Shown here in pieces: positions 42,087-57,116 of a stretch of 64,000 nt of DNA; the stretch's first letter is position 1, and each line of letters starts with the position of its first letter. Both the position numbers and the translations under genes were made by a program. Source of the DNA: Paracoccaceae bacterium. GTDB taxonomy: Bacteria > Pseudomonadota > Alphaproteobacteria > Rhodobacterales > Rhodobacteraceae. The notes beneath the pieces are model-generated. The model worked only from the letters and a program-made list of their open reading frames with translations. It ran no database searches and was not told the origin of the DNA. Where the stretch lies: assembly GCA_009773055.1 (NCBI GenBank), contig WOUW01000009.1:1-64000 (forward strand), given 5' to 3'.

Positions 42087-42090
<4 letters not shown>

Positions 42091-42512
42091 ACATCGGCGA
42101 AGCTGCAAAAGCCTCGGGCGTTTCCGCCAAGATGATCCGCTACTATGAGGAAACCGGCCTGATCCCGCCGGCCGGTCGCAGCGGGTCGGGCTACCGGACC
42201 TACGGCCCGAAAGAAGTGCAGATCCTGCGCTTTGTCCGCCGCGCCCGGGACCTTGGCTTTCCCATGGTGAAGGTCGCCGAGCTTCTGGCGCTTTGGCGCG
42301 ACCGCGAGCGGGCCAGTTCCGACGTTAAGCACCTCGCCGAAGATCAGATTGCCGCGTTGGAGCATCGCATCCGGGAAATGGAAGCGATGAAGGGCACGCT
42401 GGAACACCTCGTCCATTGCTGTGCGGGCGACACGCGGCCCGACTGCCCGATCCTGGATGACCTGGGCGGCCTGCACGGCAAGACGCCGGTGGATAGCCCC
42501 GTCAGGCGATAA
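42087..42512 (+). CDS. cueR: Copper-responsive MerR-family regulator CueR/HmrR
   Basis: 141 residues. The N-terminal MerR helix-turn-helix [20 protein letters not shown] is followed by the GYRTY wing and a dimerisation helix. The metal loop has C112 and C120 (CAGDTRPDC), the same spacing as the Cu(I)-binding pair of CueR, with an extra C111. The basic C-terminal tail is short. It is translationally coupled to copA, and its predicted target lies directly upstream of copA, giving a self-contained copper-efflux circuit. Confidence 0.95.
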
Positions 42513-42515
42513 GCG

Positions 42516-42556
42516 TTGACAGAGACGGCATCCGCAGAAAACCATACTGACCAGTA
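42516..42556 (+). promoter_or_regulatory. Likely promoter and TetR-type operator of the catabolic operon
   Basis: A consensus -35 TTGACA (42516-42521) follows cueR, and a dyad TACTG-AC-CAGTA (42545-42556) lies over the expected -10/start region, about 50 bases before the first gene. The dyad is a natural target for the TetR regulator encoded at 46251-46916 in the same operon. The -10 itself is not clear. Confidence 0.5.
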
Positions 42557-42604
42557 AAGTAATTTGCGGTGGGCGAGTCGACGCACCGCGCGCTGGGGGA
42601 CGGG

Positions 42605-43651
42605 ATGCTGCAGGAACGGATCGAAGGCAAATGGCTGGCCGCGTTTCGCCGGGTTTTTGCGCTGAACGGGATCGGCCCGGGCATCCGGATCGCGATCATC
42701 TCGGAAACCCAGTCGCGGCCCGTTCTGGTGCATCTGTGCGAGCTGGCGGCCTTTGACCTTGGGGCGTCCAGTTTCCATTTGCAGATGCCGACCCCGCCGC
42801 AGATGGCTCCGGTTCCGGTAAAGTCCACCGGGACAAGCTGGGCCATCGCAGGCAACCGCGCGGTGGTCGAGGCGCTGAAGCTGGTCGAGGTTGTCGTCGA
42901 CTGCACTGTCGAGGGCCTGATCCACGCCCCGGAATGGCCCGAGATCGACGCAGCAGGCGCGCGGCTTCTGGTCATCACCAACGAACACCCGGAAATTCTG
43001 GAACGGACCGAGCCCAAGGCCGAGGACGCAGCCCGCGTGCAGATCGGCATCCAGATGCTGCGCGAGGCCCGCGAGATGCGGGTGACCTCGCCCATCGGGA
43101 CGGACCTCGTGGTGGACCTGATCGACGCGCCTTGTGGCGGGACGCCAGGCTTTGGCACACATCCCGGCGCGGTGGCGCATTGGCCGGGGGGCCTTTGTCT
43201 TGCGTTCCCGGGGAAGGGTGCGGTGAACGGGCGGATCGTAATGGACGTGGGCGACATGAACCTGACGTTCAAGACCTATCTCACCAGCCGGATCGACTGC
43301 CATATCGAGAATGACTTCGTCGCCCGGATCGACGGCGACGGCATTGATGCGCTGCACTTCCGCGAATACCTGGAAGCCTGGGACGACCGGAACGCCTACG
43401 GCATCAGCCACGTCGGCTGGGGTGTGAACAAAGGCGCGAAGTGGGTCAGCGCGGCGATGTATGACAAGCGCGACATGCAGGCGGTGGAGTTCCGGGCGAT
43501 CGCCGGATCGTTCCTGTGGTCGACCGGGGCCAACCAGTATGCCGGGCGCTACACGCTGGGCCATTTCGACCTGCCGATGCGCAACTGCACCATCGCGCTG
43601 GACGGGCGTGTCGCCGTCAAGGACGGCGTTCTGCAAGGGGAGCTTGCCTGA
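42605..43651 (+). CDS. M29 aminopeptidase / 2,5-dihydroxypyridine dioxygenase (NicX)-like metalloprotein
   Basis: 348 residues from the ATG at 42605 (MLQERIEGKWLAAFRRVF), after a GGGGGACGGG site; a GTG at 42569 would add 12 residues. The sequence IAIISETQSRPVLVHLCELAA and the C-terminal half (ENDFVARIDGDGIDALHFREYL, YGISHVGWGVNKGAKW, GRYTLGHFDLPMRNCTIALDGR) give the histidine/glutamate pattern of the M29/NicX fold, in which NicX binds Fe(II) to open 2,5-dihydroxypyridine. Which activity applies cannot be told from sequence. It is the first gene of an overlapping operon with a hydrolase and flavoenzymes, which favours ring or amide catabolism over peptidase work. Confidence 0.78.
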   Translation: MLQERIEGKWLAAFRRVFALNGIGPGIRIAIISETQSRPVLVHLCELAAFDLGASSFHLQMPTPPQMAPVPVKSTGTSWAIAGNRAVVEALKLVEVVVDCTVEGLIHAPEWPEIDAAGARLLVITNEHPEILERTEPKAEDAARVQIGIQMLREAREMRVTSPIGTDLVVDLIDAPCGGTPGFGTHPGAVAHWPGGLCLAFPGKGAVNGRIVMDVGDMNLTFKTYLTSRIDCHIENDFVARIDGDGIDALHFREYLEAWDDRNAYGISHVGWGVNKGAKWVSAAMYDKRDMQAVEFRAIAGSFLWSTGANQYAGRYTLGHFDLPMRNCTIALDGRVAVKDGVLQGELA

Positions 43652-44994
43652 TGACCGACCAGACGCCGATCCCGGCCGTCATGCCGATGAGCGACCCTGC
43701 CGACTACTACGACATGACCCGCATTCGCCCCGAAGTCGCCGCCGCGTTGCGCCAGATCAACGAACTCGGGCCGGTCTTTGCCGCCCGCGCCCGGGCTGTG
43801 GACGACGAAGCGTCCTTTCCGACCGAGAACTACCGCGACCTCGCCGACCACGGTTTCCTCGGCCTTTCGATCCCGGAGGAGTTCGGCGGCTGGGGCTTTT
43901 CGATGGGCGACTACGCAATGGTAGGCGCCGAGATCGCGAAATACTGCGGGGCAACAGCGCTGACCTTCAACATGCACAACGGCTCGATGGCCTGGTCGCG
44001 GTTCATGTTCGACATGCCGAACCTGACTGACGCCGAGCGGGCGGAGTTTGCCCCCCTGCGCGAACGGCAGTTCCGCCGGGCCATCGCCGAACGCGCGATC
44101 TATTCGCAGCCCATCTCCGAAGGCGGGCAGAACTGGACCTCGAAGCCGAACCAGACGCAGTGCCGCAAGGTGGACGGCGGCTGGAGGATCAACGGCTTCA
44201 AGAAGTTCGCCTCGTTGGCCGGATATTGCGACTATTACACCATCGTCTGCACCGAGGTCGTCGAAGGGATCGAGCCCCGGCACGAGGATACGCTGTTGTT
44301 CGTCGTCCCGAAGGATGCTCCGGGCCTTGCAGTCAAGGGGGACTGGGACCCGTTGGGGATGCGGGGAACGAACAGCCGCGACCTGATCCTGAAAGACGTT
44401 TTCGTCGCCGAGGATGACCTTCTCATGCCGCGCGGCATCTTCGGTAAAACCTTGCCGAACTGGCCGCACATGATGGCGACCTTGTCCCCCACCTATATGG
44501 GCGTGGCGCAAGGGGCCTATGATTTTACCATCGCCTATCTGCAGGGCCGCGTACCCGGCCAGCCGCCGATCGACCGGCGGATGTATGCGACAAAGCGGGT
44601 GGCGGTGTCGAAGATGTATGCCCGCCTTGCCAACATGCGGGCGCTGTGGTGGCAGGCGTTCTCCGAGGCCAAGGGGATGCCCTCGAAGGCCGAGGTCATG
44701 CGAATGTACGCCGCCCAGTACAACGTGATGGAGGGGGTGCAGGAGATTGCGGCGCTTGCGATCCGCACCTGTGGCGGCCAGTCGATGCTGAAGTCGCTAC
44801 CGCTGGAACGGATGTACCGGGACAGCCGCTGCGGCGCGCTCATGCTTCCCTATACCTCTGAAATCATGGAAGATTACATCGGTGTCCTTGCATTGTATGA
44901 AATGGACGAGCTGGACACGGCCCCCGGGGACGAGGGTGGGGCGCGCAACTCGCTTTGGCGCGGCGATGGCGGCGCACTGAAAGCCCTGCGCTGA
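43651..44994 (+). CDS. Acyl-CoA dehydrogenase-like flavoenzyme
   Basis: 447 residues; the ATG at 43651 overlaps the preceding stop (TGATG). The N-terminal helical domain ends LGLSIPEEFGGWGFSMGDYAMV. The middle beta domain carries ISEGGQNWTSKPNQTQC and WDPLGMRGTNSRDLILKDVFV, and the C-terminal helical domain RMYRDSRCGALMLPYTSEIMEDYIG. The fold is that of acyl-CoA dehydrogenases, which includes FADH2-dependent monooxygenases; a flavin reductase gene in the same operon makes a two-component oxygenase plausible. A conventional dehydrogenase role is equally possible. Confidence 0.88.
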   Translation: MTDQTPIPAVMPMSDPADYYDMTRIRPEVAAALRQINELGPVFAARARAVDDEASFPTENYRDLADHGFLGLSIPEEFGGWGFSMGDYAMVGAEIAKYCGATALTFNMHNGSMAWSRFMFDMPNLTDAERAEFAPLRERQFRRAIAERAIYSQPISEGGQNWTSKPNQTQCRKVDGGWRINGFKKFASLAGYCDYYTIVCTEVVEGIEPRHEDTLLFVVPKDAPGLAVKGDWDPLGMRGTNSRDLILKDVFVAEDDLLMPRGIFGKTLPNWPHMMATLSPTYMGVAQGAYDFTIAYLQGRVPGQPPIDRRMYATKRVAVSKMYARLANMRALWWQAFSEAKGMPSKAEVMRMYAAQYNVMEGVQEIAALAIRTCGGQSMLKSLPLERMYRDSRCGALMLPYTSEIMEDYIGVLALYEMDELDTAPGDEGGARNSLWRGDGGALKALR

Positions 44995-46254
44995 TGGGGC
45001 GTGACGTGGTGGAGGTCCGGGGTCATGTGCCCCGCGACCCGGACGCGATCTGGTCAGTCATCAGCGATTTCTGCGGGGCATGGCATCCCTGGGTGACTGC
45101 GATCCACGAGGAACGGGGCGCAGCCGGGGCGCAGGTCCGGGCCTTTACGGTCAGCGTCGAGGACACGGTTTACCGTGAGCAACTGACCTACGTCTCGGAC
45201 AGTGACCGGGTCCTCGGCTACACGCATCTGGAGGGGATAAGGGAGTGCGAGGCCTTTGACGCGTGCATCGCCGTGACACCCGCCGAGACCGGGGGCAGCG
45301 ACGTAAGCTGGACCGCCACGATCCGCGCCCCGGCGGCGCGGTTGGCCGCGATCTGCGAGGGCACGAAGGCGGTCTATGAAGCGGGGATCGCGGCTTTGGC
45401 GACAGCGGCCTCCTCACAAACCAAAGGTGCCGATTTTCCGACCCCGACGTCGATTGAAACACTCTTCCTCGACGATCTGCCCCGGCTTTGCCTTTCGGTG
45501 ACGCCTGATCTTGGCGGCGACCGGCTCTGCCTCTTTCTCCACGGTATCGGCGGCGGCCGCAGCAACTGGCACCCGCAACTGCACGCGGCGGGCGGAGCCA
45601 TGCGCGCCGCAGCGCTGGACCTTCGGGGCTATGGCGGCAGCGCGCTTGCGCCCCGTCCGTCCACGGTGGACGACTACTGCGCCGACATCCTGCGCGTGGC
45701 GGACAGGCTGCGGGCCGCGCGGCTGGTGCTGGTGGGCCTGTCCTATGGCAGCTGGGTCGCCACGTCCTTTGCGATGCGGCATTCGGACCGGCTGGCTGGC
45801 CTTGTGCTGTCGGGCGGTTGCACCGGCATGTCCGAGGCCGGGCCGGAAGAGCGCGAGGCGTTCCGCGTCAGCCGCGAGGTGCCCTGACTTCGCGCCCGCC
45901 GTCGTCAAGGTTCTGGCCGGGCCGGAGGCAAGCGCCGAGACGATGAAAACACTTTTCGACAGCATGGCTGCCATTCCCGCCGTCACCTACCGCGACGCGC
46001 TCAACTGCTTTACCAACCCGCCGGAGCGCTTTGACTTCGCAAAGCTCTCCATGCCCGTCCTGATGATGACCGGCGAATACGACCGCCTTGCACCGCCTTC
46101 GGAAATCCGCGCCGTCGCTGGCCGCATCCGCGACGCCGTCTCCCGCCCCGATGTCCGGTTCGAGGTCATTCCCGGCGCAGGCCATGTCTGCAACGTGGAG
46201 AAGCGGGAAGCCTACAACCGCCACCTCCTGACCTTCCTTGACCGTCTGACATGA
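44994..46254 (+). pseudogene. SRPBCC-alpha/beta hydrolase fusion, frameshifted
   Basis: The frame starts at ATG 44994 (TGATG overlap). Residues about 1-145 are an SRPBCC/polyketide-cyclase-like domain (VRGHVPRDPDAIWSVISDFCGAWHPW). Residues from about 160 form an alpha/beta hydrolase with the oxyanion segment LFLHGIGGGRSNW and the nucleophile elbow GLSYGSW. The frame ends in TGA at 45885-45887, yet the next frame continues the hydrolase (DFAPAVVKVLAGPEA, MTGEYDRLAPP with the acid, IPGAGHVCNVEK with the histidine) to 46254. Removing one C from the run at 45882-45884 rejoins both. It is either a recent inactivation or a sequencing error. It resembles hydrolases such as the deformylase of nicotinate breakdown, which is inference. 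Confidence 0.82.
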
Positions 46255-46916
46255 CCGCCCTGCCGCGCCGCCAGCAGAATCGGCTGAACCGGGAACGGGC
46301 AATCCTCGATGCAGCGCTCAAGGTGTTTGCAGCGCAGGGCTTCACCGGTGCGACTATGAATGCGGTGGCGACCGAGGCCGGGGTCACGAAGCCAACGCTA
46401 TATTCCTACTTTCCGTCCAAGGACGACCTCTTTCATGCGATGATGCTGGCCAAGCGCGACCTGATGCTGGACGTCTTCGATCATCCCTCTGGCTCGATGG
46501 TCGCCGACCTGCTCGGCTTTGCCTGGGCCTATGCTGACACCGTCATGCGCCAGGACATGCTGTCGCTCGCGCGGTTGATCATCGGCGAGGTGAGCCGCTT
46601 TCCCGAGATCGGCCGCGCCTATCAGGCCAGCGGGCCGGACCATCTTCTGCACGGGATCATGCAGTATCTTGAGACCCGGCGCGACGCCGGGCGACTGGCC
46701 TTTGACGATGCCGAACTTGCCGCGCAGGATCTTTGGGGCCTGATCCTCTCTGCCCCCCGCACGCAGGCCCTTTACATGCCCGATGCCTTGCCCGACCGGG
46801 CCATGCTGGACCGCTATATCACCAACGGCCTTCGCGTCTTCCTCAAGGCCTATTCGACCACCCCGGCGCAGGACCTCGACCAACTGACAGCGCTTTGCCG
46901 ACAGGAGCCGCAATGA
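46251..46916 (+). CDS. TetR-family transcriptional regulator
   Basis: 221 residues. The N-terminal helix-turn-helix reads NRERAILDAALKVFAAQGFTGATMNAVATEAGVTKPTLYSYFPSKDDLF, the usual TetR pattern, followed by an AefR-like ligand domain (about 80-205). It overlaps the hydrolase stop and the next start (both ATGA), so it is made with the enzymes it probably controls. The likely operator is the dyad at 42545-42556. The ligand is presumably the pathway substrate or an intermediate. Confidence 0.93.
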   Translation: MTALPRRQQNRLNRERAILDAALKVFAAQGFTGATMNAVATEAGVTKPTLYSYFPSKDDLFHAMMLAKRDLMLDVFDHPSGSMVADLLGFAWAYADTVMRQDMLSLARLIIGEVSRFPEIGRAYQASGPDHLLHGIMQYLETRRDAGRLAFDDAELAAQDLWGLILSAPRTQALYMPDALPDRAMLDRYITNGLRVFLKAYSTTPAQDLDQLTALCRQEPQ

Positions 46917-48256
46917 CCCTTCTCGACGACTTCCTCGCCGATCCCGACAGCCGCTTTGCCACGGTCGCGATGACCGACACCAATGGCCTTCTGCGCGGGC
47001 AGATGGTGTCGGCCCAAAGCCTGAAGGGGATTGCGAAGTCCGGCATGGGCATGGCCCCGGCACAGCTGTCGCTGGACCCGACCGATGTGCTTCTGAACCT
47101 GCCCGGGGTGAACGACGACACCGGCGATTTTCACGACGATCCGCTGCGGGTCGACCCCGCCAGCGCCCGCCGCCTCCCCTGGTCGAAGCCGGGGCATGAC
47201 CTTCTGGTCCTGTCGAACTTCACTGGCGCTTCGGCCGGACTTTGCCCCCGGTCGATCCTGTCCCGCGTCCTTGCCCGCGCCGCCGGATCCGGGTTGGTCC
47301 CGAAATACGGAATGGAGCTGGAATACACCCTGTTCAACGAGACCGCCGAAAGTGCGGCGGCCAAGGGCTATCGCAACCTCACGCCCGCGACCCAGCATCC
47401 AAGCCATGACCTGATCCTGTATCAGGCGGTGCAGACCGAATGGTACGAGGCCGTTGCCGCGATCTGCGAACCGCTGCGCATCGACCTTGCCAAGATGCAC
47501 GAGGAGATCGGCGCGGGGTTCATGGAGGCTTGCATTGCCGCCGGCGAGGGGCTGGAGCCTGCCGACCAATTGGTGCTTCTGAAGAACTTCATCCGCGCGC
47601 TGGCCCTGCGGCAGGGCAAATGCGTGACCTTCATGCCAAGGTGGAGCGAGGGGGCCGACAGCCAGTCGATCCACCTGCACATCAGCCTGAAGGACCGCGC
47701 GGGCGCGCCGCTGTTCTGGGACGGCGCTGCGAAAAACGGCGTCAGCCAGACCTTCCGCCATTTTCTCGGCGGGTTGCAGGCCTACATCGGGGACATGACC
47801 TTGATCTTCCAGCCCACGGTGAACAGCTACCGCCGCTTTGCCCCCGGCACCTTTGCGCCGCCCGGTCTGACCTGGGGCTATGAAAACCGCACCACCTGCT
47901 TTCGTGTGGTCGGCCATGACGCAGGCTCGCTGCGGGTCGAAAACCGCCTGCCGGGCGCCGACACCAACCCGTATCTGACCACCGCTGCCACCCTGGCCGC
48001 CGGGGTCGCGGGCATCCTCAACCAGATCGAGCCGGACGCCGAGGTCATCGGTTCGGGCTATGCCCAGACCCCCGCCCAAGATTTCGCCCGGTCGATGCCC
48101 GATGCGATCGACCGGCTGAAGGGGTCGGACTTTGCCCGCGACTGGCTGGGCGACCGTTTTGTCGATGGCTTCAGCGCAACGCGCACGGCGCAGCATGACG
48201 AATTCCGCAAAAAGGTTCCCGACGTGGAACTGCAGCGTTTCTTTGACCTTGGGTGA
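46913..48256 (+). CDS. Second glutamine synthetase-family ligase
   Basis: 447 residues from the ATG at 46913, overlapping the TetR stop. The N-terminal part (FLADPDSRFATVAMTDTNGLLRGQM) and catalytic motifs (KYGMELEYTLFN, KMHEEIGAGFMEACI, SQSIHLHISLKD, RVENRLPGADTNPYLT) identify the GS fold. It is divergent from the GS-like protein at 34301-35668. In this operon it probably gamma-glutamylates an amine formed or imported by the pathway, by analogy with PuuA, GmaS and IpuC; true glutamine synthesis is unlikely. Confidence 0.88.
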   Translation: MTLLDDFLADPDSRFATVAMTDTNGLLRGQMVSAQSLKGIAKSGMGMAPAQLSLDPTDVLLNLPGVNDDTGDFHDDPLRVDPASARRLPWSKPGHDLLVLSNFTGASAGLCPRSILSRVLARAAGSGLVPKYGMELEYTLFNETAESAAAKGYRNLTPATQHPSHDLILYQAVQTEWYEAVAAICEPLRIDLAKMHEEIGAGFMEACIAAGEGLEPADQLVLLKNFIRALALRQGKCVTFMPRWSEGADSQSIHLHISLKDRAGAPLFWDGAAKNGVSQTFRHFLGGLQAYIGDMTLIFQPTVNSYRRFAPGTFAPPGLTWGYENRTTCFRVVGHDAGSLRVENRLPGADTNPYLTTAATLAAGVAGILNQIEPDAEVIGSGYAQTPAQDFARSMPDAIDRLKGSDFARDWLGDRFVDGFSATRTAQHDEFRKKVPDVELQRFFDLG

Positions 48257-48260
48257 CCTG

Positions 48261-48779
48261 ATGCCAGATGCCGCCGACCTCCGCGCCGCTTTCGTCGAAG
48301 GGATGAGCCGCGCGGCCACCTTCGTCGCTGTGGCCACCACCGACGGCGATGGGGGACGGGCGGGGGTGACGGTGTCGTCGCTCACCTCGGTTTCGGCAGA
48401 CGGCGACATGCCCTCGCTTCTGGTGTGCATCAACCGGCAATCCCCGGCAGCAACCGCGATCCTGCAGAATCGCGCCTTCTGCGCCAACCTGCTGGCCGAA
48501 AGCCAGCAGGGCATCGCGAACCTGTTCGCAGGACGCAGCGAGACCAACCGCGCCGAGCGGTTTGACCAGGTGTCCTGGGGGGTAGGCGATCTGGGCCAGC
48601 CGATCCTTACCGGGGCCACCGCGGCCTTCGAATGCCGATTGGCCACCGCGCTTCTGTGGGAAACGCATCACATCATCGTCGGTCGCGTTTCGGCCGTTCG
48701 GCTGTCGGGCAACGCATCGGCACTGCTTTACGGGCAGCGAGCTTACAGAAAGGCTATACATCTGACGGAAGATAGTTAA
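48261..48779 (+). CDS. Flavin reductase (HpaC/flavin reductase-like domain)
   Basis: 172 residues from the ATG at 48261, four bases after the ligase stop. The single flavin-reductase-like domain reads SRAATFVAVATTDGDGGRAGVTVSSLTSVSADGDMPSLLVCIN, with FCANLLAESQQGIANLFAG and the C-terminal HHIIVGRVSAVRL. Such enzymes supply reduced FMN or FAD to a separate oxygenase. The obvious partner here is the acyl-CoA dehydrogenase-like protein two genes upstream of the ligase. Confidence 0.9.
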   Translation: MPDAADLRAAFVEGMSRAATFVAVATTDGDGGRAGVTVSSLTSVSADGDMPSLLVCINRQSPAATAILQNRAFCANLLAESQQGIANLFAGRSETNRAERFDQVSWGVGDLGQPILTGATAAFECRLATALLWETHHIIVGRVSAVRLSGNASALLYGQRAYRKAIHLTEDS

Positions 48780-48792
48780 ACTGTTAAGTATT

Positions 48793-48812
48793 CTGCGGCA
48801 GCCAAGCCGCAG
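48793..48812 (+). terminator. Small hairpin between flavin reductase and permease genes
   Basis: CTGCGGC (48793-48799) pairs with GCCGCAG (48806-48812) around AGCCAA. It is not followed by a T run, so it may lower rather than stop transcription into the permease gene. Confidence 0.5.
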
Positions 48813-48864
48813 TCTCAGGGGACCCTGGCACCAAGACCCGGGCCCTGCGCAACAAGGAGGGAAC

Positions 48865-50310
48865 ATGTCTGAATTCACCGAAATCGGGCCAAACCGGCTC
48901 CGGCGGAACTCGCTGGGGTTGGTGGCCGTCACCTTCATGGTCATCTCGGCAGCGGCTCCGCTGACGGGTGTGGCGGGGGCCATGCCGCTGGCCTTTCTTC
49001 TGGGCAACGGGACCGGGATCCCGCTGACCTTCATCCTGCTGACGCTGATGATGCTGGCCTTTGCGGCAGGTTACGTGGCGATGAGCCGCCATGTCATTAA
49101 CGCCGGGGCCTTCTATGCCTATGCCGCGCGGGGCCTGGGCGGCGGCTGGGGTGGTGCGGTGTCGGTCATGGCGCTGGTCGCTTACAACACCATGCAGTTC
49201 GGGCTGATCGGGCTTCTGGGCGGCGTGTCCGCAGGCGTCTTCAGCCAGTTCGGCATTGCCCTGGACTGGTGGATCTACAGCCTGATCGCCATCGCGCTGG
49301 TTGGTATTCTTGGCTACCGGCAGGTCGATCTGTCGGCCAAGGTGATGGTCGTCCTTGTGGGCCTCGAATACCTGATCGTCCTGATCGTCGACTTCGCCAT
49401 CCTTGGCGCGGGCGGCGCGGAAGGCACGGGACTTGCGGTCAACATCTTCGACTTTTCTGCCCTAAGCTCCGGCTCTCTGACGGCGGCGGTCCTCTTTTGC
49501 CTCGGCTCGTTCATCGGGATCGAGGCGACCACGATCTATGGCGAGGAAGCCCGCGACCCGGAAAGGACCATCCCGCGCGCGACTTACCTCTCGATCCTGA
49601 TGATCGGCATCTTCTTTGTTTTCACCACATGGCTGATGATCGCGGGCACAGGCGCGGACAAGCTTCTGGAAACCATCGGCGGCCTCGAAGACCCGACCGC
49701 GCATTTCTTCATCCTGGCCGAGACCTACACCAACCCGACCATCTCGATGATCGCGGGGCTTCTCCTCGTCTCCAGCCTGTTTGCAGCCCTGTCGGCCTTC
49801 CACAACTACATCGCCCGCTATTCCTATGTTGCGGGCCGTGACGGCCTTCTGCCCGATGCTTTCGGGCGGACCCACGACACGCACCAAAGCCCGCATATCG
49901 GTTCCGTCGTGCAGACCATCGGCGCGCTGATCGTGCTGGCGATCTTCGCGGGCCTTGGACTGGACCCGATCCTGAACATGTTCACCTGGATCAGCCAGAT
50001 CGGGACGCTGGGCGTCATCGGGATGATGGCCATCACCTCGCTGTCAGTGATCGTCTTCTTCCAGCGGCAGGGCGGGGGTTCGGCTCTGTCGACCCTTATC
50101 TTGCCGGGCATTGCCGGGCTGATCATGGCGGCACTGTTCGTCTACATCTTCCTGAACTTCGGGGACCTGACCGGCACCACCGGCGGCAGCCTGGGCTGGA
50201 TCCTGCCTGCGCTGATCCCGGCAGGGGGTGTCATCGGCTATCTTCTGGCCCTGCGCCTGAAATCGGCCGACCCGGCGCGCTTTGCCCGTATGGGACAAAG
50301 CCAGGCCTGA
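48865..50310 (+). CDS. APC-superfamily amino acid/amine permease
   Basis: 481 residues from the ATG at 48865, with AAGGAGG nine bases upstream. It has twelve membrane helices; the first contains VTFMVISAAAPLTGVAGAMPLAF (the APC unwound-helix region), and FIGIEATTIYGEEARDPERTIPRATY is the conserved loop of the family. It imports an amino acid or amine by proton exchange. Closing the operon with the ligase and flavoenzymes, it probably brings in their substrate. A terminator follows. Confidence 0.92.
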   Translation: MSEFTEIGPNRLRRNSLGLVAVTFMVISAAAPLTGVAGAMPLAFLLGNGTGIPLTFILLTLMMLAFAAGYVAMSRHVINAGAFYAYAARGLGGGWGGAVSVMALVAYNTMQFGLIGLLGGVSAGVFSQFGIALDWWIYSLIAIALVGILGYRQVDLSAKVMVVLVGLEYLIVLIVDFAILGAGGAEGTGLAVNIFDFSALSSGSLTAAVLFCLGSFIGIEATTIYGEEARDPERTIPRATYLSILMIGIFFVFTTWLMIAGTGADKLLETIGGLEDPTAHFFILAETYTNPTISMIAGLLLVSSLFAALSAFHNYIARYSYVAGRDGLLPDAFGRTHDTHQSPHIGSVVQTIGALIVLAIFAGLGLDPILNMFTWISQIGTLGVIGMMAITSLSVIVFFQRQGGGSALSTLILPGIAGLIMAALFVYIFLNFGDLTGTTGGSLGWILPALIPAGGVIGYLLALRLKSADPARFARMGQSQA

Positions 50311-50329
50311 CACCAAAGCACTGAACGGG

Positions 50330-50362
50330 AAGGCCGGTCCGGGCACATCGGGCCGGCCTTTT
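50330..50362 (+). terminator. Rho-independent terminator of the catabolic operon
   Basis: AAGGCCGG (50330-50337) pairs with CCGGCCTT (50353-50360) and runs on into TTCCTTT, 20 bases after the permease stop. It is a good intrinsic terminator. Confidence 0.85.
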
Positions 50363-50431
50363 CCTTTGCGCTACGCCTTGCGCAGGGCTGTCTCGGGCGG
50401 CAAGCTTTCACCCGCAAGGGAAGGACCAGCC

Positions 50432-52613: not shown

Positions 52614-55600
52614 TCAGACCAACAGAAGGTCCGCCAATGCCAGCGTGCTGCCCTCATCCAGACTGAAGAGCGCGGTGGCATTGCTGCTGGACCCGCCGTC
52701 AGGATCCAGAAACAGCGCCCGGAACGTGGTGTCGTAGAAGAGGGCCGCCTCGGGTTCGGGAAAGCTGCCGGGCATTGCCACCCCGGTCTGCCACATCCCC
52801 GAAAGCGTCGCCCCCGCCGCAATGCCCAATCCTGCGCGGTCCAGCACCACCCGGTCCACCCCGCTGGTGAAATCGAGGAACAGATCCTCGGCATCCGCGG
52901 TGATGATCTCGAAGTGATCGACCCCGGCGCCGCCATGGTAGACGTCGCGGCCCGCGCCGCCCGTCAGCCGGTCATCGCCGTCGCCGCCGTCCAGATGGTC
53001 GCCGCCAGCCTCGCCGGTCAGCGTGTCGTTGTTCGCACCCCCCCAAAGGACGTCGTCATTGTCCCCGCCCGACAGCGTGTCCTGGCCTGCCTGTCCATAA
53101 ATCCAGTCGTCGCCCGCCCCGCCTGACAGGTTGTCGTCGCCGGTGCCGCCATCCAGGTTGTCGCCACCATCGCCGCCATCCAGAAGGTCGTTACCCTCTT
53201 GCCCGAAGAGGGCGTCAGTCTCGGTGCCGCCATAAAGCTGGTCGTTGTCGAACGAGCCGTAGAGCCAGTCGACCCCCTGCCCGCCATAAAGCACATCCAT
53301 GCCATAGCCGCCGTCGAGGTTGTCGTTGCCCGTGTCGCCGTAAAGCAGGTCGCTGCCGAACTCGCCGAACAGCGCGTCGGTGTCGGCCCCGCCGTCCAGC
53401 CGGTCGCTGTCATCGCCGCCATACAGCCAGTCCACCCCGTTGCCGCCGTAAAGCACGTCAATGCCGGTCTCGCCCTGCAACGCATCGCCGCCGTCACCGC
53501 CCAGGATGGTATCCGCCCCGGTTCCTCCCCACAGCGCGTCCGTCTCGGACCCGCCATCCAGGCTGTCGTTGCCAGCATCGCCATAGATCCAGTCGATCCC
53601 GGCAAGCCCCGACAGCGTGTCGTTCCCCGCCCCGGCGGCCAACGTATTGTCCAGCGCGTTTCCGATCCCGGTCGCATTCACGCCCGTTCGCAGGATCAGA
53701 ATCTCGACATTCGCCCCCAGGGTGTAGCTGGTCAGCGTCGTGTCGATGGTGTCGGTTCCGGCACTGGCCCCCTCGACCACCACATCCAGCGCCGCGTCGA
53801 TGACATATAGGTCATTGCCGAGGCCCCCCTCCATCCGGTCGGTGCTCGCGCCCCCGTCCAGTCGGTCATCCCCGTCGCCGCCGTAAAGCGTGTCATTTCC
53901 GGTCCCACCGTCCAGCCAGTCAAGGTCAGCATCGCCATAAAGCAGGTCGTTCCCGTCGCCCCCGGTCAGGGTGTCGACGCCGATCCCGCCTTCCAGCCGG
54001 TCACTGGCAAGGCCTCCGTCCAGCGTGTCGTTGCCATCGCCACCAAGCAACGTGTCCAGCCCGTCGCCGCCCTGCAGCGTGTCGTTTCCCGCCCGGCCCT
54101 CCAGGCTGTCGTTGCCAAGGCCGCCCATCAGCAGGTTAGCAAAGCCATCGCCCTGCAGCGTGTCCGCCCCGGTGCCGCCCAGCAGCCCCTCGATCCCGGT
54201 GAACGTGTCACCCACCGCCTCGCCCGTCGACAGCGAGGGCGTCGCCATGTCGACGCGCAGGCCCGTACTTTCGGCATAGGACGCAATGTCGAACCCTGCC
54301 CCCCCGGTCAGCGTGTCCGACCCGGTGCCGCCCATCAGGGTGTCGTCGCCATCGCCCCCCTCCAGCAGGTCATTCCCGCCCCGGCCCGAGATCGCATCAT
54401 TGCCGCCAAGCCCGTAAAGCTTGTTCCCCCCCGCATCCGCCGCCAGCGTGTCGGCAAAGCCCGAGCCTTCGAGACCCTCGATCGCCACCAGCACATCGCC
54501 CAGCGCCTCGCCGGTGTTCAACGCTGGCGTCACGAAGTCCACCCAGACCCCGGCCCCGGCCTCGGCATAGGTGACAAGGTCCGTCCCCGCGCCGCCTTCA
54601 AGCCGGTCCGACCCCAGCCCCCCCATCAGCCGGTCATCGCCATCCCCGCCGTAAAGCATGTCAGTCCCCGACCCGCCCGACAGCGTGTCGTTGCCGGCAA
54701 GGCCGGTCAGCGTATCGTTGCCTGCCCCGCCAAGGGCCTGATCGGCAACCGAGGAGCCCGAAAACGTGTCGGCAAAGGCGCTTAGGATGAAGCCTTCGAT
54801 CCCGACGAAGATGTCGCCCAGCGCGTCGCCGGTGTTCAGGCTGGCGGTGACAAGGTCGATCCGGATCGCGACGGTGGACGTGTCGTAGCTTGCAAAATCG
54901 GTGCCGGTGCCGCCATCCAGCCGGTCCGTCCCCTCGCCTCCGACCAGAGTATCGGTGCCGTCGCCGCCGTAAAGGCTGTCGGACCCGGCGCGCCCGTCCA
55001 GCCGGTCGTTGCCTTCCAGTGAGATCAGGTTGTTGGCCTGCGCATCGCCCGCCAGCGTGTCGTGGTAGCCGGTGCCTTCCAGATCCTCGATCCCGACATA
55101 GCTGTCACCCGCCGCTTCGCCCGCGTTGACGCCCGGGGTGGTCAGGTCGGCGGCGACCCCGAACAGCGACTCGCGATAGCTGGCACGGTCGCGCCCGACG
55201 CCACCGTCCAGCGTGTCCACCCCGATCCCGCCCAGCAGCGTGTCGTTTCCGTTGCCGCCAAGAAGGCTGTCGTTGCCGCTGCTGCCCGACAGACGGTCGT
55301 TCCCGTCCTGCCCCTCGATCCGGTTGTTGGCCGGATCGCCGGTCAGCGTGTCCGAAAAGGCCGATCCGATGATCCCTTCGATCGAAACATAGGTCTGGCC
55401 GGTGGCGATGTTGGTGTTCTGGTTCAGCGCCTCCAGACTGACGCGGATGCCCGCAGTGGCCCCGGTCAGCAAAATGGTGTCGAACCCTGCACCGCCGTTG
55501 ATCGTATCGGCCCCGACCGAGACCAGGAACAGATCGTCGCCAGTCCCGCCGGTCAGGACGTCGATCTGGTTGGTCCCGTAGATCAGGTTTTCCGGCTGGG

Positions 55601-57116
55601 GCGGCGGCGGCAAGGAATGCCAAAGCGCGACGAAGTCGCCGAGCTGGAAGTTCCCGGGGGCCAGCGGCATCCCGTTCGGGGTGACAAGCTCCAGCACCTC
55701 CTCGCCCCAGGTGATCAGCGCGCCGGTGGCTGTGGCGGTGATCGTCAGCGCTGCCAGCGAATAGATCGGCCCCCAGGCCGAGATGTCGATCCTGTCGATG
55801 CCGAACTGGTAATCGGCGATCCGGTCGGCCACGCCGTCGGCAGCCAGCACGAACAGATCCGCCCCGGCCCCGCCGAACAGCGTGTCGGACCCGGCCCCAT
55901 CCGACAGGATATCGTCACCGAGTTCGCCGAGGATCTGCTCGTCGGCGTAGCCGCCAAGGATCATGTCCGCCAGCGCCGTGCCGGTCAATGTGGCTGGGTC
56001 GAAGCCGCCGGTCTGGATCGGGGCAAGGGTGCCGGGGTCGATCTGCAACCGGATGATCCCGGTGCCTTCAGTGGCGATGAAGACCTCGATCACGCCCCCG
56101 GTCACCCGCGCGGTCATTGCGGTGATGTTGTCCAGTCCAAGTCCCGTCTCGTTCAGCAGCTGGCCGCACTTCAGAAGCCGGCCGTCGGGGGTCAGCGTCA
56201 TGACCGTCAGCCCGTCATCTCCGCCGCCCGCGATGACAAAGACCCGGTCGCCCATCTGCACTGTCGCAACCGACTGCACGGCCGCAAAGCGGGTATCCAG
56301 CGTGTCGATGACATGGTCGGTTACCTGCATCGACCCGTCGCCGGCCAGCCGGACCACGCTGATCGAGGACGAATTGGTCGAGGCCAGGATCAGGTAGGTC
56401 GATCCGGCCATCTCGACCGTTTCGACCGCCGAGGGGTCATTGATGCCAAGGCCCTGCGGCGCGCCGATCATCGTCGGATTTCCCAGCGTGCCGTTCGCCG
56501 CGACCGGGAAGGCGCGCATCACGTCCGCCTCCAGCGACAGGCTGATCATGAACCTTTGCCCAGCCACCGTGACCGGCACCAGCGTGGTGATGTCGACCCC
56601 GGTATAAGGCCCGTCCAGGACGCGCGAGCCGACCAGCGTCATCGTCCCGTTCGCTGCCACCGAATAGGTGTGAATCGTGCTTTCGCCCGTCCGCGCGGCG
56701 TAGAAATACGTCGCACCCCCGATCTGCAGGATGGTCTGCGCCGCAATCGCGCCCGCAAGGCTGCCGGGCAGCTGGATCGGGGCGTTCAGCGTGCCGGTGG
56801 CGCTGATGCCAAAGGCATTGACCCCGGCCTGGTTCGCCCCGGTGACGATCAGATGGGTCGTGCCATTGATGACCACGGTGTCCAGCGTCGCCTCGGCTGG
56901 CAGCGCCATCCCCGGGGCGATGCTTTCCTGGTCAAGAAGCGTCATCGTGCCGCCGACGTCCAGCGCCAGCACGCCACCCCCCGCACGGGTCGCCGAATAG
57001 AGCAGGGTCTTGCCCCCCTGCACCACAAGTTCCAGATCACAAATGCCCGACACCATGTTCAGCGGCGCAGCCGTGAACGTCTCCAGCACCAGAAAGTTTA
57101 TCACTTCCGGCCCCAC
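52614..57116 (-). CDS. Giant RTX calcium-binding protein with N-terminal propeller-like domain
   Basis: 1500 residues from a GTG at 57116. Residues about 20-370 show seven or so repeats of a GxxxYxxxAxxGxxxVxxxxxDGxL type, suggesting a beta-propeller. Residues about 385-1430 hold dozens of GGxGxDxLxGGxGxD nonapeptides in blocks, separated several times by a repeated linker (ASYxxSxxxVxVDLxxxxxNTGEAxGDxFVGIEG). The C terminus (about 1430-1500) is the non-cleaved signal typical of type I secretion. It should be exported and fold on binding Ca2+. No type I ABC exporter is in the window. It may act as a surface adhesin or matrix protein; enzyme motifs were not seen. Confidence 0.9.
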   Translation of the reverse strand: MGPEVINFLVLETFTAAPLNMVSGICDLELVVQGGKTLLYSATRAGGGVLALDVGGTMTLLDQESIAPGMALPAEATLDTVVINGTTHLIVTGANQAGVNAFGISATGTLNAPIQLPGSLAGAIAAQTILQIGGATYFYAARTGESTIHTYSVAANGTMTLVGSRVLDGPYTGVDITTLVPVTVAGQRFMISLSLEADVMRAFPVAANGTLGNPTMIGAPQGLGINDPSAVETVEMAGSTYLILASTNSSSISVVRLAGDGSMQVTDHVIDTLDTRFAAVQSVATVQMGDRVFVIAGGGDDGLTVMTLTPDGRLLKCGQLLNETGLGLDNITAMTARVTGGVIEVFIATEGTGIIRLQIDPGTLAPIQTGGFDPATLTGTALADMILGGYADEQILGELGDDILSDGAGSDTLFGGAGADLFVLAADGVADRIADYQFGIDRIDISAWGPIYSLAALTITATATGALITWGEEVLELVTPNGMPLAPGNFQLGDFVALWHSLPPPPQPENLIYGTNQIDVLTGGTGDDLFLVSVGADTINGGAGFDTILLTGATAGIRVSLEALNQNTNIATGQTYVSIEGIIGSAFSDTLTGDPANNRIEGQDGNDRLSGSSGNDSLLGGNGNDTLLGGIGVDTLDGGVGRDRASYRESLFGVAADLTTPGVNAGEAAGDSYVGIEDLEGTGYHDTLAGDAQANNLISLEGNDRLDGRAGSDSLYGGDGTDTLVGGEGTDRLDGGTGTDFASYDTSTVAIRIDLVTASLNTGDALGDIFVGIEGFILSAFADTFSGSSVADQALGGAGNDTLTGLAGNDTLSGGSGTDMLYGGDGDDRLMGGLGSDRLEGGAGTDLVTYAEAGAGVWVDFVTPALNTGEALGDVLVAIEGLEGSGFADTLAADAGGNKLYGLGGNDAISGRGGNDLLEGGDGDDTLMGGTGSDTLTGGAGFDIASYAESTGLRVDMATPSLSTGEAVGDTFTGIEGLLGGTGADTLQGDGFANLLMGGLGNDSLEGRAGNDTLQGGDGLDTLLGGDGNDTLDGGLASDRLEGGIGVDTLTGGDGNDLLYGDADLDWLDGGTGNDTLYGGDGDDRLDGGASTDRMEGGLGNDLYVIDAALDVVVEGASAGTDTIDTTLTSYTLGANVEILILRTGVNATGIGNALDNTLAAGAGNDTLSGLAGIDWIYGDAGNDSLDGGSETDALWGGTGADTILGGDGGDALQGETGIDVLYGGNGVDWLYGGDDSDRLDGGADTDALFGEFGSDLLYGDTGNDNLDGGYGMDVLYGGQGVDWLYGSFDNDQLYGGTETDALFGQEGNDLLDGGDGGDNLDGGTGDDNLSGGAGDDWIYGQAGQDTLSGGDNDDVLWGGANNDTLTGEAGGDHLDGGDGDDRLTGGAGRDVYHGGAGVDHFEIITADAEDLFLDFTSGVDRVVLDRAGLGIAAGATLSGMWQTGVAMPGSFPEPEAALFYDTTFRALFLDPDGGSSSNATALFSLDEGSTLALADLLLV

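Follow-up and report, generated by a model that had tools for sequence, protein, structure and literature searches.

A conserved operon combining a NicX-family dioxygenase with a glutamine synthetase-like ligase, possibly for ring opening of an aromatic amine

The 64,000-nucleotide stretch of Paracoccaceae bacterium contig WOUW01000009.1 analysed here (positions 1 to 64,000; "the window") contains an operon of seven co-directed genes, extending from 42569 to 50310. They encode a relative of the ring-cleavage dioxygenase NicX, a flavoenzyme of the acyl-CoA dehydrogenase (ACAD) fold, an SRPBCC/alpha-beta hydrolase, a TetR/AcrR regulator, a glutamine synthetase (GS)-like ligase, a flavin reductase and an APC-family permease (Table 1). 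The initial annotation had described five genes overlapping by 1–4 bases, followed by a reductase after 4 bases, and the gene coordinates agree. The NicX-like and ACAD-like genes share one base at 43651, as do the ACAD-like and hydrolase genes at 44994; the hydrolase and TetR genes (46251–46254) and the TetR and GS-like genes (46913–46916) overlap by four bases. The flavin reductase gene starts 4 bases after the GS-like gene, and the APC gene 85 bases after that of the reductase.

The permease had been proposed to close the unit before a good terminator, and the hairpin found beyond it supports this. It has a folding energy of -30.1 kcal/mol (z -4.7), which none of 200 shuffles matched, and a run of U at the base of the 3' arm; it was absent from the list produced by a simple terminator scan. 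The 85-base gap before the APC gene (48780-48864) contains an inverted repeat, and similar CCGG-type repeats were seen by eye in several orthologous gaps. The repeat in the window folded no better than shuffled sequences (z 0.05), and because this fold energy is ordinary, no structured element is claimed there.

Table 1. Predicted features of the operon and its immediate surroundings in the window.
Feature	Position	Strand	Remarks
NicX-family Fe(II) ring-cleavage dioxygenase	42569..43651	+	frame opens at GTG 42569; likely start ATG 42605
ACAD-fold flavoenzyme, read as two-component flavin monooxygenase	43651..44994	+	Pro at catalytic Glu position
SRPBCC domain and first part of alpha/beta hydrolase	44994..45887	+	early frame end
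Remainder of alpha/beta hydrolase, different frame	45871..46254	+	broken gene in this assembly
TetR/AcrR regulator	46251..46916	+	TetR_C_7
GS-like ligase, candidate gamma-glutamyl-amine synthase	46913..48256	+	Phe in place of flap Glu
Flavin reductase (RutF/HpaC/HsaB kind), likely partner of ACAD-like oxygenase	48261..48779	+	
APC-family permease	48865..50310	+	
Terminator-like hairpin 3' of APC permease gene	50327..50363	+	
MerR-type regulator (CueR-like, by eye), neighbour outside the unit	42087..42512	+	after copper-ATPase-like gene

A scan of genome contigs gave 169 pattern matches, among which 138 relatives of the NicX-like gene were found, and the best 80 were fetched with their surroundings. 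Genes in the loci of this study were predicted with a custom gene caller trained on these same genes; the low-GC locus L111 and part of L106 were read by tblastn, and L111 also from a list of open reading frames. In 43 of the 80 loci the match to the NicX-like protein begins at residue 13, corresponding to ATG 42605. The start of the unit had been placed at 42516, which is not a start of this frame. Gene order was counted in the 69 loci that reached at least 8 kb past the start of the NicX-like gene. The NicX-like gene was followed by the ACAD-like gene and the SRPBCC/hydrolase gene in all 69, by the TetR gene in 66, the GS-like gene in 65, the flavin reductase gene in 60 and the APC gene in 48; the absences may include assembly faults. 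The complete set, in the gene order that the initial annotation had proposed to look for in other genomes, recurs in 46 of the 69. Among these 46, gaps of at most 10 bases separate the ACAD-like and hydrolase genes in 46, the hydrolase and TetR genes in 45, and the TetR and GS-like genes in 46. The NicX-like/ACAD-like junction is less tight than the window suggests, with such a gap in only 17/46. The description of a tightly coupled unit is confirmed in part, and the genes are not all equal members of it.

Co-occurrence was assessed in 150 genomes from the family of the source organism, with arbitrary cut-offs of E 1e-100 for the NicX-like and ACAD-like proteins and E 1e-130 for the GS-like protein. 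The NicX-like gene was found in 11 genomes and the ACAD-like gene in 12, with both in 10 (hypergeometric 6e-13). In the two genomes with only the ACAD-like match (L110 and L111), a dioxygenase gene lies one gene away, encoding proteins of 48.5% and 41.5% identity, respectively. With these two, which fell just below the cut-off and were added by hand (a step taken only for genomes with an ACAD-like match), all 12 family genomes that have the ACAD-like gene carry a dioxygenase gene next to it or one gene away. The GS-like gene exceeded its cut-off in 5/150 genomes, every one of which has the module. This co-occurrence and the conserved order support the idea of one catabolic unit. The full or near-full set is not confined to close strains: it occurs in Rhodobacterales, Rhizobiales, one SAR116 record and one Chromatiales record. 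The operon is thus real and widely conserved. The scatter among genera (11/150), six plasmid records with relatives of the NicX-like protein at 60–80% identity, and the grouping of the Chromatiales protein with those of Sulfitobacter point to horizontal spread of the module. The Chromatiales module itself (L073, from a Bugula-associated record), whose proteins group with Sulfitobacter, could represent either a class-crossing transfer or a mis-binned contig.

The first protein had been annotated as M29/NicX-like. It matched no Pfam or NCBIfam family at E 0.001, M29 included, although public plasmid records give its relatives the name 'peptidase M29'. Its only relative in the PDB up to E 10 is NicX (E 1.5e-55; alignment over 329 residues), which favours the NicX half of the name over the peptidase half. 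Residue numbers and roles are those of NicX, as given in the available part of PMC7910607. Among 81 NicX-like proteins, the iron ligands are kept (His265, Ser302 and His318 in 81/81, Asp320 in 80/81), and so are His105, His189 and Arg293 (81/81). In all 81, however, Glu177, Val175 and Glu308 are replaced by Thr, Gly and Tyr. According to the same text, Glu177 holds N1/O1 of dihydroxypyridine, and NicX activity is reported there only for 2,5-dihydroxypyridine. Nic-type proteins have Glu at position 177 (9/9), HpaB-associated proteins Gln (2/2) and haloarchaeal proteins Ser (2/2). A tree of this protein with known members, another step that had been proposed, places the window family (support 98/96) and the nic-operon group (100/99) on opposite sides among 34 rows, with long-branch warnings elsewhere in the tree. 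By its sequence, the 'M29' protein belongs with the Fe(II) ring-cleaving dioxygenases of the NicX family, and the kept iron centre supports metal-dependent ring opening as a likely step. The kept ligands, the changes at 177 and 175 and the separate tree group make it look as if the iron chemistry was retained and the substrate changed to one lacking the pyridone group; the pocket is probably roomier and the substrate bulkier. The haloarchaeal proteins (L098 and L100) have Ser177 and are encoded near genes for aspartate dehydrogenase, a thiamine pyrophosphate-binding enzyme and a ring-hydroxylating oxygenase; they perhaps represent another non-pyridine branch.

The ACAD fold of the second protein was recognized by Pfam (PF02770, PF02771 and PF00441), and Foldseek agrees. 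The motif ALMLP(Y/F)TSE is found in 74/79 of these proteins, compared to GEGTSE in a dehydrogenase (1ws9), which puts Pro at the position of the catalytic Glu; the other 5/79 rows have no TSE motif, and the position is unread there. This residue (Pro400) is invariant in 20/20 aligned rows. The protein thus lacks a feature expected of a true acyl-CoA dehydrogenase. A separate flavin reductase is encoded in the same unit in 60/69 loci. The ACAD-like protein is thus likely to be a two-component flavin monooxygenase with the reductase as its likely partner, in line with the flavin-dependent oxygenation that had been suggested as a step. In 17/80 loci (L061:15708-16871 and 16 more) the flavin reductase is fused to a LysR-type ligand-binding domain, perhaps forming a substrate-gated reductase. 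The fusion was identified by Pfam in L061, where no DNA-binding part was matched, and by clustering in the other loci. A 47% relative of the ACAD-like protein is encoded near transposase genes and without the other module genes on a plasmid of the cyanobacterium Dolichospermum (L085:8956-10203).

The SRPBCC-hydrolase fusion is present in the window, but the gene is not intact: its frame stops at 45887, and the remaining hydrolase sequence is read in a different frame as far as 46254. The Ser/Asp/His triad is kept in 68/68 hydrolase orthologs of more than 400 aa, consistent with the suggested hydrolytic step, and is split over the two frames in the window. The break could be either real or an assembly fault, the source genome being 59% complete and in 87 contigs; with a broken hydrolase gene, the source strain may not run the pathway. 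A fold search with the L002 ortholog (predicted local distance difference test score, pLDDT, 91) found esterases, an enol-lactonase, C-C hydrolases and others, indicating no single reaction. At L107:5682-7709 (-) and L105:5973-7970 (-), SRPBCC, alpha/beta hydrolase and TetR form one protein (by Pfam for L107).

The GS-like protein carries the GS catalytic domain (PF00120). Its flap reads GTFAPP in 68/69 proteins, compared to GYEAP in true GS, so that the flap Glu is gone. It is not specifically close to 8wwu, which we take to be NpaA1 (148 bits, compared to 247 for the best match). Loss of the flap Glu has been reported for glutamyl-organic-amine synthases (available part of PMC11335346). The protein is therefore a candidate gamma-glutamyl-amine synthase rather than an ammonia-using GS, and the missing Glu lends support to the gamma-glutamylation that had been suggested as a likely step. 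A 56% relative in Sagittula is followed by genes annotated as glutamine amidotransferase (GATase) and P450, and a 57.5% relative in Novosphingobium by similar genes (by eye). L108 has a second GS-like gene with P450 and class-I GATase genes beside the module (Pfam), and the same set was seen by eye near L012, L026 and L029. The recurrent combination of GS-like, class-I GATase and P450 genes (L086:12010-15317; L087:10007-13324; L108:9939-13172 (-)) may represent a separate gamma-glutamyl-amine pathway.

The variant loci indicate which parts of the set belong together. Diverged relatives at 41–51% identity have a gene for an adenosine monophosphate (AMP)-forming ligase instead of the GS-like gene. 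L102, L110 and L111 share the order dioxygenase, hydrolase without SRPBCC, ACAD-like protein and AMP-forming ligase, and L103 has the ligase, dioxygenase, hydrolase and a distant ACAD. The ligase was identified by Pfam in L102 and by NCBIfam in L103; in L110 and L111 it was recognized by similarity or by eye. TRAP-type genes were seen by eye in L102 and L110. At position 177, the dioxygenase of L102 has Val and that of L103 has Ile. With this ligase swap, the triad of dioxygenase, hydrolase and ACAD-like protein looks like an old core to which exchangeable ligases have been attached. Two GS-lacking loci have a gene for a flavin adenine dinucleotide (FAD) amine oxidase (PF01593), adjacent in L105 and one gene away in L072, and a 'tyramine oxidase subunit B' gene lies upstream in Aminobacter.

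Upstream neighbours were counted in the 70 loci with 5 kb of upstream sequence, their families having been identified on representatives and then counted across loci. A gentisate/5-aminosalicylate-type cupin dioxygenase was found in 33, an FAH hydrolase in 32, a second flavin reductase in 31, a GntR regulator in 30 and a nitrilase-family protein in 18. The source genome gave no cupin match, which is uninformative at 59% completeness. A benzoate-CoA-ligase-family gene is present in 9/80 loci, two of which also have the upstream cupin module; the two members scanned scored just below the curated cut-off. In Sagittula, a 78.5% relative of this ligase gene is in one run with salicylyl-CoA hydroxylase and tryptophan dioxygenase genes. 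Homoprotocatechuate-type genes near L005, L023, L036 and L051 and demethylation-type genes near L030, L075, L081, L104 and L105 were recognized by eye from N-termini; as the two kinds disagree, such neighbour names were rejected as a guide to the substrate.

From the observed gene content, conservation, co-occurrence, kept iron centre and loss of both the dehydrogenase residue and the flap Glu, we infer every reaction, the reaction order and the substrate as follows. The chances are about even that this is a catabolic operon for the ring opening of a primary amine of aromatic, probably aryl-alkyl, type; the outline of the mechanism is likely. The APC permease would import the amine, and the GS-like ligase would couple it to glutamate, thereby masking the amine. 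The ACAD-fold monooxygenase would then hydroxylate the ring with reduced flavin from the reductase, and the NicX-family dioxygenase would cut the C-C bond beside the hydroxylated carbon. The SRPBCC/alpha-beta hydrolase would hydrolyse a formamide, enol-lactone or C-C bond in the opened product, and the TetR protein would sense a pathway metabolite. Because two ring-cleavage sets lie side by side, the substrate may have two rings or the product may still be aromatic; our first guess is for this reason an indolic amine of the tryptamine or serotonin type, albeit a tentative one with the balance against it. The bond logic of NicX, which acts at a hydroxyl-bearing carbon adjacent to CH-N, can be transferred to 3-hydroxyindole and would favour the same choice; ring hydroxylation and C2-C3 cleavage would then give an N-formyl-anthranilate type product, followed by deformylation. 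A phenolic amine (tyramine or dopamine) is the second choice and slightly less likely. Taking the variant loci into account, it is a real possibility, if short of probable, that the operon represents an undescribed ring-opening triad acting on a non-pyridine ring with interchangeable front ends, namely gamma-glutamylation for an amine, an amine oxidase, or an AMP-forming ligase for an acid, and that in some lineages the LysR-domain reductase or hydrolase-TetR fusion gates enzyme action or supply by substrate.

Several observations weigh against amine ring opening by this set. Cleavage of an indole or phenol by a NicX-like enzyme would be an extrapolation from the 2,5-dihydroxypyridine enzyme, and the pocket varies within the nic proteins too, position 105 being Phe in 6/9 and position 189 Asn in 1/9. 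Position 76 was left out of the argument, since one alignment has Gly there and another leaves the window protein gapped. The predicted model of the ACAD-like protein (pLDDT 74) has a flavin-containing monooxygenase and nitrososynthases as well as true dehydrogenases among its Foldseek neighbours. No close relative of the GS-like protein has a known amine. Membership is unequal, with the GS-like gene missing from 4, the reductase from 9 and the APC permease from 21 of the 69 loci, and the ACAD that accompanies the dioxygenase and hydrolase in genome G035 (locus L103) is merely a distant one (25%). Finally, the neighbouring genes indicate a number of pathways and single out no substrate.

We considered the possibility, which we regard as unlikely, that the core triad degrades an aromatic acid or some other ring, while the GS-like enzyme acts late or aside by trapping or detoxifying an aromatic amine intermediate of the anthranilate type. 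The dispensability of the GS-like gene would fit, as would the nearby benzoate/aminobenzoate-type CoA-ligase genes in 9/80 loci and the diverged branch (L102, L103, L110 and L111), in which dioxygenase and hydrolase are accompanied by an AMP-forming ligase and, by eye, TRAP/ABC genes for uptake, an arrangement that would suit an acid. However, the APC permease and the GS-like gene lie within the same operon, and an FAD amine oxidase gene is found nearby in two GS-lacking loci. The long NicX alignment with its kept iron centre might instead suggest a nicotinate-like pathway in which the NicX-like protein acts as a genuine 2,5-dihydroxypyridine dioxygenase, and an Asp/Glu-racemase-superfamily protein and a C-N hydrolase are indeed encoded beside the dioxygenase in L038 (Pfam, NCBIfam) and L043 (by eye). 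Against this stand Thr177 in all 81 proteins, the separation from the nic group in the tree, and the absence from the window operon of the nic-locus partners (FAD monooxygenase, Asp/Glu racemase and isochorismatase, as annotated), which leave this very unlikely.

Biosynthesis or signal modification, in which a ring-opened gamma-glutamyl metabolite is made and not consumed, would agree with the patchy distribution and with the P450/GATase setting of the GS-like relatives. Breakdown fits better with a permease in 48/69 loci and ring-cleavage and FAH genes nearby in about half, and no export or assembly-line genes were noticed by eye in the gene lists; we give biosynthesis a very slim chance. That the proteins are what their public names say ('peptidase M29', 'acyl-CoA dehydrogenase family protein' and 'glutamine synthetase family protein') is hardly credible, given the lack of a Pfam M29 match, the Pro in place of the catalytic Glu and the lost flap Glu.

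A set of enzymes resembling that of the operon is known from steroid ring catabolism, in which HsaA, HsaB, HsaC and HsaD are an ACAD-fold flavin oxygenase, a small flavin reductase, a ring-cleavage dioxygenase and an alpha/beta hydrolase, respectively. The same four enzyme kinds are present here, but the dioxygenase is of the NicX type instead of the extradiol type, and the operon has a GS-like ligase and an amino-acid/amine-type permease in addition. The HsaA, HsaB and HsaD models match the window proteins far below their cut-offs, and HsaD is among the Foldseek matches of the hydrolase. NicX itself (7cn3; PMC7910607, in part) belongs to the same family and shares ligands H265/S302/H318/D320 as well as H189 and R293, and an alpha/beta hydrolase gene is nearby in both settings; the window family differs at positions 177 and 175 and in its tree group, and it is accompanied by an ACAD-fold oxygenase, a GS-like ligase and an SRPBCC fusion in place of the NicC-, NicE- and NicF-type proteins of the nic operon. 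With the gamma-glutamyl-organic-amine synthases AtdA1/TdnQ and NpaA1, as covered by the available part of PMC11335346, the operon shares the GS fold, the flap Glu loss and an oxygenase in the unit; unlike those systems, it has neither a GATase nor a Rieske oxygenase. The iif/iac pathways for indole and indole-acetate (available parts of PMC6221969 and PMC9871250) resemble it in having a flavin oxygenase with a reductase and anthranilate-type products. They differ in that a GS-like ligase or aminopeptidase-like gene has no occurrence in that part of PMC9871250, and none was seen in that of PMC6221969.

The operon had been put forward as an undescribed system. No published description of this gene combination was found in the openly licensed PubMed Central literature, which does not by itself establish its absence in print; it is made of known enzyme kinds, and, as far as these searches go, it is a new combination of them around a re-tuned NicX-type dioxygenase. 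If amine ring opening is correct, a conserved route for aromatic-amine breakdown, with core genes in at least 69 loci, lies behind peptidase, acyl-CoA dehydrogenase and glutamine synthetase labels. The NicX family would then extend beyond dihydroxypyridine, with a natural set of residues that alters its substrate, and the genes could be used to mark the turnover of aromatic amines in soils and waters.

Outside the unit, a MerR-type neighbour of the same kind as that in the window was found in 5/80 loci. Further downstream, a 1500-residue open frame on the minus strand (52614-57116) has many GGxGxD-like repeats by eye, giving it the look of an RTX-type calcium-binding protein.

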